Source: a virus | Length of the DNA: 34,562 nt | Strand: one strand, 5' to 3' | Virus record (IMG/VR): IMGVR_UViG_3300043172_000287 | Span: 1 to 34,562 of that record | In this document: positions 28,808 to 34,541 of the stretch, one piece after another | Position numbering within the stretch: position 1 is the first letter of the stretch | Layout of the letters: each line of letters opens with the position of its first letter | Notes under the pieces: model-generated | What the model was told of the DNA's origin: nothing | Databases searched by the model: none | What the model saw: the letters and a program-made list of their open reading frames with translations, nothing else | Program-made: the position numbers and the translations under genes

Positions 28808-28965
28808 TGAGTAAACAGTTGGGTAAGCACACATGTACAGACGACTTCACTAAAGAAGTCTGTCCGCATGGATGGACTAGGGCGAGAGTTTGTCCGCACG
28901 GGGTCTCAAACTGCTTCGATTGTTATCGTTCAGCGTACATATTTATATGGGTTGCTGATGTTTGA
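28807..28965 (+). CDS. 52-residue protein with repeated CPHG motif
   Basis: The product has HTCTDDF, then VCPHGWTRARVCPHGVSNCFDCYR, with CPHG twice and a CxxxxxC/CxxC arrangement that suggests a small zinc site. The C-terminus is a short hydrophobic strand. GGGAG is 9 bp before the ATG, which touches the previous stop (TGATG). It overlaps the next gene by 8 bp. Confidence 0.6.
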   Translation: MSKQLGKHTCTDDFTKEVCPHGWTRARVCPHGVSNCFDCYRSAYIFIWVADV

Positions 28966-29440
28966 CGACAAGGACAGCTCATCTCGATGGGATACCTTCT
29001 TCATGGATATGGCTTTCCTTGTGGCATCCAAGTCCAAGGATAGGTCTGTCAAGGTAGGGTCGGTAGCTGTAGGAGAGGCCCACAATATGCTGGCCATGGG
29101 GTACAACGGCTTCGTCAGGTACGCCGATGACGATGATGATGAACGCCACCAGCGACCAGAGAAATATAATTGGACAGCCCACGCTGAGCTGAACGTAGTT
29201 TGCAACGCAGCTCGCAGCGGTACCAAGCTGTTAGATGCGACGTTGTACGTCACCGCCCACCCTTGTGTTGATTGTGCCAAAGCTATCGTACAAGCAGGGT
29301 TCAAGGAAGTGGTCATCCCTTCCAAGGAAGAAGATCCTTTCTGGAAAGCAGGGAGGTGGGGTGATTGGGAAGACAACTTCAAGAAGGCTCAGCAGATCAT
29401 GCATGAAGGGCAAGTGAGGGTCATAGATCATGTCGTTTGA
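28958..29440 (+). CDS. dCMP deaminase-like zinc enzyme
   Basis: This 160-residue cytidine/deoxycytidylate deaminase-fold protein has the catalytic HAE at residues 75-77 ([10 protein letters not shown]) and PCVDC with C103 and C106. [23 protein letters not shown] and an early [11 protein letters not shown] fit dCMP deaminase. It would convert dCMP to dUMP for dTMP synthesis. The start is the ATG overlapping the preceding small gene; the longer frame upstream belongs to that gene in another frame. Confidence 0.85.
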
Positions 29441-32400
29441 TAAGCAGGGTAACTGGGTAGGCAAGACGCAGGAAGAGGTAGATGCATTTGTGTCCTCCCT
29501 GGAGGAGGAGTCCTATACAGTACCCAAGGGGTTACAGGATCAGATCCAAGCTATGGGCATGCAGGTGCTGGAGGCGAACAGCGACCTCGTCAAGTCCAAC
29601 AAGAACACCAACCAAGCATTCCTGAGCCTTCTCGGTAAAGGTGTGAAGCCAGTGGATATCGTCCTCCCTGTCTACGGTGGGCTCCACGTCTTGATCCACT
29701 GCATCAACTCCATCCAGGCCCGTACCAACTGGCCGTACCGCCTCATCATAATAGATGACTGCTCTCCTGATGGTGCTACGCAGCTGTGGTTAGAGGAGTG
29801 GGCTAAGGTAAACCCCCAGCACACCGTCCTATTCAACAAGAAGAACCGAGGCTTCGCAGCTACAGTCAACCGAGGCATAGAGCTGGGTGATGGAGAGTAC
29901 ATCTGCGTACTCAACTCGGATGTGATTGTCACACCAGGCTGGTTATACAAGATGGTGCTGGCCCTGGAGGCAGACGAGCGTAACAAGATCGTCAACCCTT
30001 GCACCAACAACACCGCCCTCATTGGTATACCCCTCCAACCTGGGTACGACTACAACGATATGAACCGGGCACTTGAACGGCTATCCGCCCATCAATACCC
30101 GGAGATTATGCCAACAGGGTTCTGCTTCATGATGGAGCGTTCCTTGATTGATGAGATCGGAACCTTTGATGAGGGCTACGTGTCCTACGGAGAAGAGACA
30201 GACTTCTGGATGCGTACAATCACTCGCATTAGCAAAGGGATGGTGCCTAGTTGGAGAGCTGTCCTCGCTGACGACACTTACCTCTTCCATGAGAGAGGTA
30301 CATCCTTTAGCGTAATGGGAGCGGAAGAACACATGGGGTTCCGGAAGTCGGGAGCTGGGAGGTTCCATAGTATATGGCCAGGGTACAAGGCAGTGGAGAA
30401 AACGTTTAATATCGAACAGAAACTAAGGAAGCTGCGGACACCTATCTCTGATGAGTTCATCAAGAAGGTTAATCCTAAGTACAGCATTTGCTTCGTAGTG
30501 TATAGCACAGAGAATTGTGGTGGCATGAAGGTGATCGCCGACATCGTCAACTACCTAAATGAACAGAATGTAGAGGCTAAGGTAGCACACATCCGGCGAG
30601 ATCCAAAGATGAAGAGGAACGTGCTGCCTTCATTGCGGTCAGAGCCTATCGTGTTTGAAGGTGTGTCTGACTTCGTTACTAACTTCGGGGAGCGTGTGTT
30701 CAAAGAGGGGATCGTGGTCGCAGGCACCGGGGAGTTGATGCCCCCGGTTGCCTCGGTCACCCTTGATAACCCGAAGCTTACCTCTCTTCACTTCTCTCAA
30801 AGTGACGATACTTCCATCGCTCCTTCTGCTTCACTGAAGAAGAGCATCGCTGAGGCTAACAGGCTGTCTGATTACACCATCACCAACAGCAAGTGGACAG
30901 CCGCCAAGATGGCTAAGAAGCATAAAGTTAGTGGTAGTATCTCAGTAGGGTATGATGATCTGATGTTCTTCCCCCGAGGGAGAGATACAGGAGATGATAG
31001 GCCCACCATTCTGGTGTCTTTGGGAAACCAAATGTACCCCTTCAAGGGGCATGACCGCGGGGTGGATATGTGTCAACACCTCCAGAAGTTATGCAAAGAG
31101 AACAATAAAGAGATCCGGATCCTTGCTAACGGGGTCGATGCGGTGCAAGGATTTCCCTACATTGTGGGCCTGGGTATCATGTCACAAACTCGATTCGCTA
31201 AGGTTCTAGGGACCGAGGTGGATGTGTACTGTGACCCTGCCCACAACCATAGCTATGGACTACCTACCCTTGAGGCAATGGCTTCGGGTGTTGTACCTGT
31301 GTGCTGGAACAACAAGGGTGTAACTGAGTACGCCACCCATGACCTAGATGCCATCATCCTAAACAACAAGACAGCAGCCGTTGTCATGGCTGAGAGGATC
31401 TACAACCTACTGTTCAATGAGCCGAAGCGCCTTGTAGGCCTCCAGAAAGAAGGGCTGAAGACAGCAGCGAAGTTGAAGAGGCACGATGGGGTACTGAAGT
31501 TTGTTGGCCTTCTAGAGAAAACTCTTAACCTTGAGTTCATACCTAGGAAGATTGCTGTGATCACACCTCACCTCCGCAAGTACGGTGGGCCTACTACAAT
31601 CCTAGATACAGCCAATCTCTTGAGTGCCGCAGGGCATGATGTTGCCCTCTATACACAACATACCGACATTGACCCTAGTATTCAGGCGAGCTGTAAGGTT
31701 CCACTTCGAGTGGACTGGCAGGAGATCCCACCTTGTGATGTGGTGATCACTAATTCAGACAATGCATACAACGACAAGATCCATGCGATGGCGCACATCA
31801 AGAAGAAGGTGATGTTCAAGCTGTCTCACAATGAGCGGTTCAAGGATCTGGAATCTAAGTCTCTCGACCTGGGATGGGACACTATAGCTACTAGCACACA
31901 GTGGTTGCAGGATGCCTGCGAGAAGACTACTGATGGCTGGGACTACGTCCCTCACGCCGCCAAGCGTGTAGGGTGGTACCACTACGGTCATGAAGTTTTC
32001 AACTTAAATGCTCATCGTAGGCAATTCGGTGACAAAGAGAAGGGGATCACCGTTGGAACCTTGATCCATGCACACCCTTTGAAAGGTACGAACGAGGCTC
32101 TTCAAGTAATGAACGCCATCGCGCAGAAGTACCCCGGTACGGTTCGGATGGTGGGTGTTGGTGAGGTGCCTGACTTTTCGAAGAATAAGCCACCTTGGTT
32201 GAACTACATAGCCGGGGCCTCTAGAGAGGAGATGGCTATGGTTATGGCACAGGTAGACATTTGGTTGGTGGCTTCTCACACCGAGGGGCTTGGACGTATG
32301 ACACTAGAGGCCATGTCTAGTGCGTGTGCCATCGTGGCCACGGACACACAGGCTGAGTTCTTGGTAGATGGTGTGAACTGTATGCTCTCTGAGATAGGGG

Positions 32401-32555
32401 ACGTTAATGGCCTCACCAACTGTGTTGATATCTTGTACAACGATACCCCTAAGAAGGAAGGGATCATCACCGCAGGGGTGGCCACCGCCACTAAGGCAGC
32501 AGACCCCACGGAATACATACATAACTGGAACAAGATCATAGGAGATTTGTTTTAA
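29430..32555 (+). CDS. Three-domain glycosyltransferase (GT2 plus two GT4-like domains)
   Basis: This 1041-residue protein appears to hold three transferases. Residues 74-320 form a GT2 domain: [28 protein letters not shown] as the metal site and [10 protein letters not shown]. Residues 350-700 form a first GT-B domain with [18 protein letters not shown] and [14 protein letters not shown], where the first Glu of the usual E-x7-E is His607. Residues 707-1041 form a second GT-B domain with KYGGPTTIL and [14 protein letters not shown] (E952, E960). It could build a short glycan on phage DNA, virion proteins or a host target. It overlaps the deaminase gene by 11 bp. Confidence 0.85.
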
Positions 32556-32737
32556 TGAGCTACACGAAAGAAAAGATGATCGACCTAATCGAACAGGCAG
32601 TCATTGACGCACCGGAAGGGCAGTTTGTAGATGTAGAGCAGGCACTAAAGGTGATAGCGTCGGCAGCTAACTACTTATTCTCCCAATGCGAAGGGGCACA
32701 CGTCAAGGATGGATCCGAGACTGAGACTACTGATTGA
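32555..32737 (+). CDS. Small hypothetical protein
   Basis: This 60-residue acidic helical protein ([19 protein letters not shown] at the start) is coupled to the large glycosyltransferase by TAATG, with AGGAG about 11 bp upstream. A Thr/Glu/Asp-rich tail follows the helices. It is not recognised. Confidence 0.6.
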   Translation: MSYTKEKMIDLIEQAVIDAPEGQFVDVEQALKVIASAANYLFSQCEGAHVKDGSETETTD

Positions 32738-32894
32738 TGACGCACGTCGTAGACACATCCCTCTGTTTAATAGGCCTTGCTATGGGGGCGACGAGGCAGA
32801 GGCGTATTGTCAAGGGTGCAAGGGGCTGGAGTTTGATTGCCCTGTCCTCAAGGCAGCGAAGGAGCTAGAAGATGAGTACGACAAGAGCAGTTAG
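32709..32894 (+). CDS. Small hypothetical protein with Cys motif
   Basis: This 61-residue protein has RRHIPLFNRPCYGG, then YCQGCKGLEFDCPVL, three or four cysteines that could form a small zinc site. It overlaps the previous gene by 29 bp and the next by 23 bp, both in different frames. It is supported mainly by the Cys pattern and by filling the otherwise empty interval. Confidence 0.55.
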   Translation: MDPRLRLLIDDARRRHIPLFNRPCYGGDEAEAYCQGCKGLEFDCPVLKAAKELEDEYDKSS

Positions 32895-33621
32895 CATCTG
32901 CACATACAACCGTTCGGATACTCTCCGTGAGGTTATCAGCGGCGTACTGAGTACAGTACCTGAGGGTACAGATGTGTTCGTGTGCGACGACGGGAGTACA
33001 GATTCTACCTCCGACACAGTAGCAGAGTTCGAAGGTGTACACTACTACCGAGGCCCCAACAAGGGGGTGGGTGCCAACAAGACACGCGCCCTCTACCTCA
33101 TGAAGAACCACCACTTCAGCTGCATCCTTGAGGATGACCTCGTACCGACGGAGAAGAATTGGTTTGAGACCTACGAGACAGCCTCCACGCTGACGGATAT
33201 ACACCATTTCTGCCGTGTTCAGAACAAAGAAGTACCTGAGACTTTGAGTGGGTTTACGGATTACATGAAGCAGACCATGAGTGTCACCCCTATCTACGGC
33301 TCCAGCCCTAGAGGAGACATGACATTCCTAACGAGGCGCGTTATCACTACGGTTGGTGGTATGAACCCCTTGTTCCAGGGTGTCGGGTATGCCCATGGTG
33401 AATGGTCGAATCGGGTATGGAAGGCAGGGCTCATCTCTCACCCACTCAAGTGGGTAGACATCGCCGAAGCACGCGACAAGTTTAAGCAGCTAGGAGATAC
33501 AGAAGGTGGGCGGTGGGACGATGATCGAGATAAGATCGAGAAGCAGCTCCAGTACAACAAGAGAGTGGCTAGTAATCTAGAGAAACAAGATGATATCTAC
33601 TGCCCCCTGAGGCTCAGCTGA
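32872..33621 (+). CDS. GT2-family glycosyltransferase
   Basis: This 249-residue single-domain GT-A enzyme has SICTYNRSDTLREV at the N-terminus, VCDDGSTDST (38-46) and a metal-binding CILEDDLVP with E87-D88-D89. The C-terminal half, with a Trp/Gly-rich GVGYAHGEWSNRVWKAG, probably binds the acceptor. It is the second transferase of the cluster and touches the third at its stop (TGATGG). Confidence 0.82.
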   Translation: MSTTRAVSICTYNRSDTLREVISGVLSTVPEGTDVFVCDDGSTDSTSDTVAEFEGVHYYRGPNKGVGANKTRALYLMKNHHFSCILEDDLVPTEKNWFETYETASTLTDIHHFCRVQNKEVPETLSGFTDYMKQTMSVTPIYGSSPRGDMTFLTRRVITTVGGMNPLFQGVGYAHGEWSNRVWKAGLISHPLKWVDIAEARDKFKQLGDTEGGRWDDDRDKIEKQLQYNKRVASNLEKQDDIYCPLRLS

Positions 33622-34541
33622 TGGCTAACATCATACTAGGGTACAGGAAGGTGTTCGACAAGAGAGGCGAGGAGGTCATGACGTACTCCAATAGTACCGT
33701 GAAGGCGCTTCTAGACCAGGGACACGTTGTTACTCCTATGGGTGAAGGTCATCCTCTTGCTTCCTTCAAAAGTATAGCCACTTCTGCTCTAACGAACTAC
33801 GACTTCTTCCTCGACCTTGACTGCGGGCGAAACAAGAAAGGCGACTTAGCCTTTCAGACTGAGAAGACACCAATTCCCTCAGCGGTGAGGTATATCGACA
33901 CCCACGGACACCCCTCCTTACACAAGCGGCTGGCCAAGAACTACGATCATGTCTTCTTCGCCGTGTGGGACAAGCGGGACATCTTCACGAACCACCCTTC
34001 AACCCACTGGTGCCCCAATGCCAGTGATGCCCAATACTTCTACAAGGATGTTCTACCTATCGCTCAGCATGAGGCCCGTCCCTTTGACATTGGGTTCTTT
34101 GGTAGTAAGGGAGGAATAGATAGAGCCGATGTCCTTGAAGATATGTGTAAGCGGCACTCATGGCTAAAGGATGTACGAGAGATAGGGAAGAATGGGCAAC
34201 GATGGCCCCGTACTTCAGAAGCTATGGCCCTATGCAAGGTATTGTTCAACCGCGGACAGAAGCACGATGGCCCCAACCAGCGTGTGATCGAGAGTATGTT
34301 GATGGGGCGTCCTCTGGTATCAGATAGTGATCCGAGGGACGGTATGAAGAAGCTGTTTGAAGAGGGTACGCACTACCTCAGCTACAGGACTGACGCAGAG
34401 CTAGCCGACAACTTAGGCTGGTGCCTTCGCGAGCCTTCGTTGGCCGCGTCTATGGCTCATCGAGCGTATGAACTGGCATACGAGAAGCATCAGGTGAAGC
34501 ATAGAGTAGAGCAGATACTGGAGGTGTGTGGTGTCAAGTGA
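33621..34541 (+). CDS. GT-B glycosyltransferase, CgeB-like
   Basis: This 306-residue protein ends in a GT-B C-lobe of the CgeB/group 1 type: FDIGFFGSKGG (155-165), LFNRGQKHDGPNQRVIESM (E224), MGRPLVSDSDP and FEEGTHYLSYRTDAELAD, with a closing YEKHQVKHRVEQIL. The N-terminal lobe has LDLDCGRNKKGD. Such proteins transfer sugars from nucleotide donors. The lobe order and length are complete. It follows the GT2 gene directly. Confidence 0.8.
   Translation: MANIILGYRKVFDKRGEEVMTYSNSTVKALLDQGHVVTPMGEGHPLASFKSIATSALTNYDFFLDLDCGRNKKGDLAFQTEKTPIPSAVRYIDTHGHPSLHKRLAKNYDHVFFAVWDKRDIFTNHPSTHWCPNASDAQYFYKDVLPIAQHEARPFDIGFFGSKGGIDRADVLEDMCKRHSWLKDVREIGKNGQRWPRTSEAMALCKVLFNRGQKHDGPNQRVIESMLMGRPLVSDSDPRDGMKKLFEEGTHYLSYRTDAELADNLGWCLREPSLAASMAHRAYELAYEKHQVKHRVEQILEVCGVK

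Follow-up and report, generated by a model that had tools for sequence, protein, structure and literature searches.

A GT2-GT4-GT4 polypeptide and the conserved glycosyltransferase cassette that it opens in an apparently little-known lineage of roughly 120-kb phages

The DNA analysed, here called the window, is a virus record of 34,562 bases. Apart from the genes described below it carries phage replication genes, encoding a DNA polymerase, a DnaB-like helicase, a primase, a ligase, a UvsX-like recombinase, SbcC/D-like proteins, endonuclease VII and an exonuclease. A dCMP-deaminase-like gene (28868-29440) overlaps by 11 bases the start of a long glycosyltransferase (GT) gene, which is followed by further GT genes:

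29430..32555, + strand: GT2-GT4-GT4 glycosyltransferase, 1041 aa (Pfam, AlphaFold2 model, full-length homologues)
29430..29639, + strand: N-terminal helical extension, residues 1-70, with the lowest conservation in the protein (alignments, model)
29640..30449, + strand: GT2 (GT-A) domain, ~residues 71-340 (PF00535, invariant motif residues)
29913..29921, + strand: DxD-type motif Asn-Ser-Asp, residues 162-164 (N162 and D164 invariant)
30189..30197, + strand: Gly-Glu-Glu active-site motif of GT2, residues 254-256 (alignment)
30465..31535, + strand: first GT4 (GT-B) domain, residues 346-702 (PF00534, Z ~32 to MshA/BshA)
31248..31274, + strand: His607-x7-Glu615 instead of Glu-x7-Glu (40 homologues aligned)
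31536..32552, + strand: second GT4 (GT-B) domain, residues 703-1041 (PF13692, Z ~27-28 to TarM/PimA)
32283..32309, + strand: Glu952-x7-Glu960 motif of the second GT4 (invariant)
32709..32894, + strand: small 61-aa ORF between GT genes, kept in 5 relatives (no Pfam match)
32872..33621, + strand: GT2b, single-domain GT-A glycosyltransferase, 249 aa, second in the cassette (PF00535, 3e-13)
33621..34541, + strand: GT-B glycosyltransferase, 306 aa, third in the cassette (PF13524, 2.3e-17)

The open reading frame at 29430-32555 (+) starts with an ATG at 29430 and contains no stop. An earlier note on this DNA had proposed, for domain searches to check, that it encodes a single 1041-residue chain with GT2, GT4 and GT4 domains, and the reading frame, the Pfam matches and the predicted folds all agree with this. 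Residues 77-243 match PF00535 (Glycos_transf_2; 3.6e-23, 82.8 bits against a cut-off of 23.3), residues 597-667 match PF00534 (Glycos_transf_1; 2.8e-17, in two stretches) and residues 873-1005 match PF13692 (Glyco_trans_1_4; 1.5e-20). An AlphaFold2 model built on 35 homologues (mean pLDDT 87.6, pTM 0.76), which replaced a poor earlier model from 14 close homologues (pLDDT 62.7), contains one GT-A and two GT-B domains. In the model, residues 348-702 align over ~335 residues to MshA, BshA and sucrose-phosphate synthase (Z ~32), and residues 705-1041 to TarM, PimA and others (Z ~27-28). The Foldseek matches of the model include polypeptide GalNAc-transferases (1xhb, 6e4q, 2d7i), which presumably come from the GT2 part and from what GT-A enzymes have in common. 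Besides its PF00535 score above the cut-off, the GT2 domain has a DxD-type metal site and an acidic catalytic base: in 35 aligned homologues D109-D110, N162-x-D164 and E255 are invariant, and E256 and H287 nearly or fully so. The second GT4 combines the GT-B fold with a Glu-x7-Glu motif in which E952 and E960 are invariant. In four pairs of relatives dN/dS ranges over 0.12-0.24 in the GT2 domain, 0.07-0.26 in the first GT4 domain and 0.09-0.27 in the second GT4 domain, and all three are, by this measure, under purifying selection. As dozens of viral contigs carry full-length relatives (40-81% identity) and dN/dS is 0.07-0.27 throughout, the three-domain reading frame is not a chance one.

The first GT4 has the GT-B fold and the donor-site Glu and Lys/Arg, and departs from the Glu-x7-Glu pattern at the first Glu. 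The His that the earlier note had read at this place is confirmed, the second GT4 being normal in this respect. Position 607 is His in 38 of the 40 homologues and Gln in two, and never Glu or Asp, even at ~40% identity, while E615, G610, P612, the GGM of residues 364-366 and Q457-S458 are invariant, G540 is invariant or nearly so and K539 nearly so (Arg in few). Two bacterial plasmid relatives, an 1103-aa Enterobacter and a 641-aa Methylosinus protein, have Gln here, and the latter (Mt641) matches PF21374 (WsaF_N). In other GT4 enzymes the first Glu binds the 3-OH of the donor sugar, and WsaF works with Pro at the equivalent position (PMC3898925). Because WsaF, a CAZy GT4 member, likewise lacks the first Glu (PMC3898925), the domain is filed as a variant GT4-type domain. 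This Geobacillus GT4 rhamnosyltransferase and its relatives WbbX and WbsJ keep only the second Glu, as here (PMC3898925), but the motif of WsaF reads PHPSYPPLE against NHSYGLPxLEA in the phage protein, and the three-domain protein gives no match to PF21374.

The earlier note had called the first GT4 specialised or inactive. A catalytically dead domain, serving as a structural or sugar-binding module while five other sites act, would be compatible with any of the acceptors considered below, and the fact that all 40 homologues have His or Gln for the donor-binding Glu could be taken that way. It is improbable, however, since the remaining active-site residues (K539, G540, E615, GGM 364-366 and others nearby) are invariant or nearly so, since dN/dS is no higher than in the other domains, so that the domain is not decaying, and since WsaF is active with Pro at the same place and bacterial relatives have Gln. 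Of the two options, specialisation is thus borne out by the conserved His/Gln and inactivity is not. The change is read from the alignment as an altered donor pocket, and a deoxy sugar is a plausible donor. Counts of His- and Glu-type motifs by DNA pattern in bacterial genomes were dropped, as forward-strand counts were all zero and totals too low.

Viral contigs were scanned for relatives three times, each time with a deeper alignment, and full-length relatives were found in dozens of them, from 81% down to ~39-40% identity. These include contigs of 119,470, 119,599 and 121,061 bases, the second with an 87-bp direct terminal repeat. A scan of bacterial genomes with the single sequence gave no match, and one with the alignment gave a single contig of 119,592 bases with phage-like genes, binned in a Deltaproteobacteria MAG, which offers only a hint of a host link. 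Searched against 50,697 annotated phage records, the whole protein is covered to 18% at best, in the GT2 domain where listed, and searches of annotated phages with the first GT4 domain and with the GT-B gene found none. With a best coverage of 18% the lineage has no close match in this annotated collection, and a description elsewhere is possible. Judged from these contigs, the relatives constitute a little-known lineage of roughly 120-kb phages that always carries the cassette described next.

The two separate glycosyltransferases noted earlier after the three-domain gene are present (32872-33621, PF00535; 33621-34541, PF13524). The window stops 21 bases after the second of these, the GT-B gene, and in relatives it is followed by a fourth GT gene, GT2c, and then by a convergent gene of the structural operon, T1197, of ~1100-1240 codons where complete. 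The order GT2-GT4-GT4, GT2b, GT-B, GT2c, then convergent T1197, is found in 27 of 27 spanning contigs and violated in none of 59, the contigs having been picked by carriage of one cassette gene or T1197, so that finding the query gene itself carries no independent weight. When T1197 alone seeds the scan, every locus that extends far enough contains the cassette. Mean identity of the structural gene T1197 across the lineage is 37%, and its pairwise identities follow those of the three-domain gene (r = 0.91), a co-divergence that fits vertical inheritance of the cassette as a core module. Six GT domains in four genes, in the same order in all spanning contigs, support the multi-step glycan assembly line suggested by the earlier note. 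The cassette proteins show no transmembrane-like segment (peak 19-residue hydropathy 1.58), as would be expected of soluble enzymes.

The cassette closes the replication-side operon and is not part of the structural one. Its upstream neighbours vary among relatives (dCMP deaminase, DUF3310, AAA, DUF6378), and the deaminase, frequent here but not constant, was rejected as a component of the system for that reason. In one relative (L037:3513-6720) apparent ribonucleotide reductase and ThyX-type thymidylate synthase genes, recognized by eye, lie upstream of the cassette. T1197 was dropped as a candidate tail fibre: it gave no match in Pfam, PHROG or the PDB, it has the look of a long helical protein, and together with the neighbouring convergent genes it resembles, from sequence, an internal or ejection-type structural protein more than a fibre. 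In some divergent relatives additional genes are found within the cassette, namely UDP-glucose/GDP-mannose dehydrogenases (L077, L105), HAD phosphatases (L068, L079), and an IMPDH-type gene and an SDR. Peptide-deformylase genes also occur among the GT genes of L072, L073, L074, L077, L100 and L105 (PF01327 in L072, 3.1e-39; the others by likeness), and small GGQ-motif ORFs resembling peptide-chain release factors follow directly after the three-domain gene in L073 (11112-11510) and L077 (11116-11478).

A second set of sugar-related genes is located among the late genes of a ~119 kb relative (G002):

G002:16000-26202 (L021/L022), - strand: tailoring cluster between the terminase large subunit and portal genes, with epimerase, GT2 and methyltransferase-like genes

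The cluster encodes an NAD-dependent epimerase (PF01370, 3.4e-44), nearest to CDP-tyvelose 2-epimerase (4e-64), GT2 proteins and apparent methyltransferases, one of which resembles those adjoining glycosyltransferases in mycobacteriophages, e.g. McProf. Further proteins were labelled P-loop sulfotransferase-like and deacetylase-like by eye only, and one PDB search and two phage searches gave these labels no support. G001, G056, G057 and G058 have similar clusters with the genes differently combined, and the contig of the Deltaproteobacteria MAG has a reduced form.

The earlier note had named phage DNA, tail proteins or a host surface molecule as what the product could decorate. Glycosylation of modified phage DNA bases, in the fashion of the T-even phages, is suggested by the deaminase gene, which overlaps the GT start in the window and adjoins it in several relatives. 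The same gene is, however, absent beside the three-domain gene in many relatives with the whole cassette, and six GT domains with a nucleotide-sugar dehydrogenase exceed the needs of base glucosylation. The note had also proposed a search of the full genome for hydroxymethylation genes, and a search of two ~119-kb relatives, G001 and G002, found none. PF00303 (thymidylate synthase/dCMP hydroxymethylase), the hydroxymethylase family of T-even-type DNA glucosylation, has no match in these two or in G003, G007 and G010, with a control that registers in 9 genomes; PF00145 (C5-cytosine methylase) has none in G001, G002 and G007, its control also registering. A search with PF12851 (TET/JBP dioxygenase) gave zero matches, as did its control. 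Hydroxymethylation of the usual kind is unlikely given that neither PF00303 nor PF00145 is found in the relatives searched, and decoration of phage DNA, which lacks support, is accordingly the most improbable of the acceptors considered.

Proteins are brought into focus by the fourth gene. GmaR glycosylates flagellin, a host protein, whereas SunS is a peptide S-glycosyltransferase that acts on a small peptide. In a comparison with the PDB, the GT2c family profile matches GmaR (2.8e-9), SunS (3.3e-7 and 3.9e-7) and 7msk (5.7e-5), in that order. The match to GmaR and SunS spans only the nucleotide-binding half (residues 5-118), a part not diagnostic of the acceptor, and the PDB is itself a biased set of proteins. 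GmaR and SunS are not among the first matches of the other cassette GTs, and the single NCBIfam match of GT2c is SunS, far under the cut-off. GmaR is a bifunctional anti-repressor/glycosyltransferase (PMC3150276), and GT2c differs from it in having neither its TPR nor its anti-repressor parts and in an acceptor half that is not alignable. The GT2b profile matches chondroitin synthase (3e-15), and the GT-B gene gives a weak match to HepE. The likeness of GT2c to both enzymes would also agree with a small free or peptide-linked glycoside as the product, whether of the glycocin type or a modification serving host takeover. Six domains for sugar transfer are more than one would expect for such a product, a non-exhaustive search around the cassette revealed neither a small gene for a precursor peptide nor one for a transporter or a protease, and this reading is considered very unlikely.

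A role in which the cassette remodels a glycan on the surface of the infected host (LPS, capsule or glycolipid), for example to block superinfection or hide a receptor, has more in its favour. Bacterial relatives of the same build lie in polysaccharide-type loci, and the 1103-aa Enterobacter plasmid protein, of GT2-GT4-plus type, adjoins a sugar transporter and a nucleotide-sugar dehydrogenase; the weak best NCBIfam matches are to exopolysaccharide and thiol-sugar GTs, and the cassette's place at the end of the replication-side operon is in keeping with such a role. The cassette has, however, no membrane protein, flippase or polyprenyl-phosphate GT, the tailoring cluster lies among packaging and head genes, and retention without exception at the mean structural-gene identity given above is more than is usual for a dispensable serotype-conversion gene. 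Nor does it resemble GtrABC O-antigen conversion, having no transmembrane-like segment and only a weak match to phrog_841. Host surface remodelling is on these grounds considered rather unlikely.

On balance the cassette enzymes probably form a soluble, cytoplasmic assembly line by which a glycan is started and lengthened on the phage's own virion proteins. This reading draws on the resemblance of GT2c to protein and peptide GTs, the position of the tailoring cluster between terminase and portal, the nucleotide-sugar dehydrogenases within the cassette, the invariant gene order and the precedents in mycobacteriophages and a chlorovirus. Weighing against it are the position at the end of the replication-side operon and the restriction of the GmaR/SunS match to the nucleotide-binding half. 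Of what the earlier note had offered, a virion protein is thus favoured by the GT2c likeness and the late cluster, a host surface molecule less so, and the neighbouring genes do not speak for tail fibres. While domains, motifs, conservation, gene order and selection are observed directly, the activity, order of reactions, donor sugars and acceptor are inferred. In the proposed scheme GT2c or the GT2 domain would attach the first sugar to a side chain (Ser, Thr or another) in a virion protein. The GT2-GT4-GT4 chain would then add three sugars in turn from nucleotide sugars, one per domain if a 1:1 relation is assumed. The first GT4, with His or Gln for the 3-OH-binding Glu, would use an uncommon donor, for which a deoxy sugar is plausible. 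More sugars would be attached by GT2b and the separate GT-B, and the epimerase, methyltransferases, GT2s and possibly sulfotransferase- and deacetylase-like enzymes of the late cluster would tailor the glycan.

In Che8, Corndog and Myrna, capsid and tail-tube proteins are glycosylated by phage GTs (PMC12363180). Che8 gp110, Corndog gp38 and Myrna share with the present phages the encoding of soluble GTs, theirs acting on capsid or tail-tube proteins (PMC12363180; PMC11256854), and mycobacteriophages share the type of methyltransferase noted above in the late cluster, but separate GTs are reported in these three and not a three-domain chain. The chlorovirus PBCV-1 protein A111/114R is a three-GT protein that builds core sugars of the capsid glycan (PMC9614988). 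It is likewise one soluble viral polypeptide with three GT domains conserved in its lineage, in a genome with further single GTs, methyltransferases and sugar-nucleotide genes (PMC9614988). It differs in belonging to a virus of eukaryotic algae and to other GT families, no homology being shown, and in having a product known on the capsid where that of the phage cassette on the virion is inferred. Among bacterial proteins, the Enterobacter plasmid protein (WP_306675705.1, 1103 aa) has a GT2 followed by a GT4, 24% identity over 75-722 and Gln at the His607 position, and among the Foldseek matches the Actinobacillus Cps multienzyme 8qoy ranks first, its alignment spanning 942 columns at a TM of only 0.25. 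Such bacterial multi-GT polypeptides differ in their host capsule or exopolysaccharide setting and in having another C-terminal domain.

The domains are all of known families, and there are viruses that make virion glycans of their own, so that the cassette is judged to be a variation on virus-encoded virion glycan synthesis; what sets it apart is the strict conservation of its six domains in a lineage with no near relatives in the annotated phage collection searched. More tentatively, and with some doubt, the phages may represent an undescribed ~120-kb lineage with a genome-encoded oligosaccharide coat, its core made by the invariant six-domain set from a GmaR/SunS-like start on particle proteins, and its outer sugars varied by the fast-changing late cluster through epimerase, methylation and possibly sulfation and deacetylation. 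Such an O-antigen-like glycan coat on a tailed phage would be a bacterial-virus counterpart of the chlorovirus capsid glycans. If virion proteins are indeed the acceptor, the lineage makes a complex virion glycan by a fixed core and a variable outer pathway, and the question why phages carry glycosyltransferases becomes testable, with adhesion or shielding (against antibodies, proteases or host lectins) as candidate answers. It would also be a source of soluble multi-domain GTs that possibly add three sugars in succession, including a GT4-type site without the first Glu.

Two relatives of the three-domain gene (L076:3934-8343 and L079:6795-11153) contain an intein-like 390-aa in-frame insert at the identical site after the GEE of the GT2 domain (GEE^T/S), which the window gene is without. 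The two inserts are 69% identical and match LAGLIDADG_3 and Hom_end. To our knowledge inteins are unusual in glycosyltransferases. They tend to occupy conserved active sites, and an insert at GEE therefore lends indirect support to the importance of this GT2 motif. Position 1 of the inserts is Met, blocks B, F and G contain Trp, Cys and Thr, respectively, and Asn is the last residue ahead of the Thr/Ser. By reading, not by profile, they fit the class 3 intein described in PMC5050341, and they would be expected to splice. One member of the T1197 family (alignment A4) also matches Intein_splicing (PF14890, 2.3e-10) and LAGLIDADG_3.
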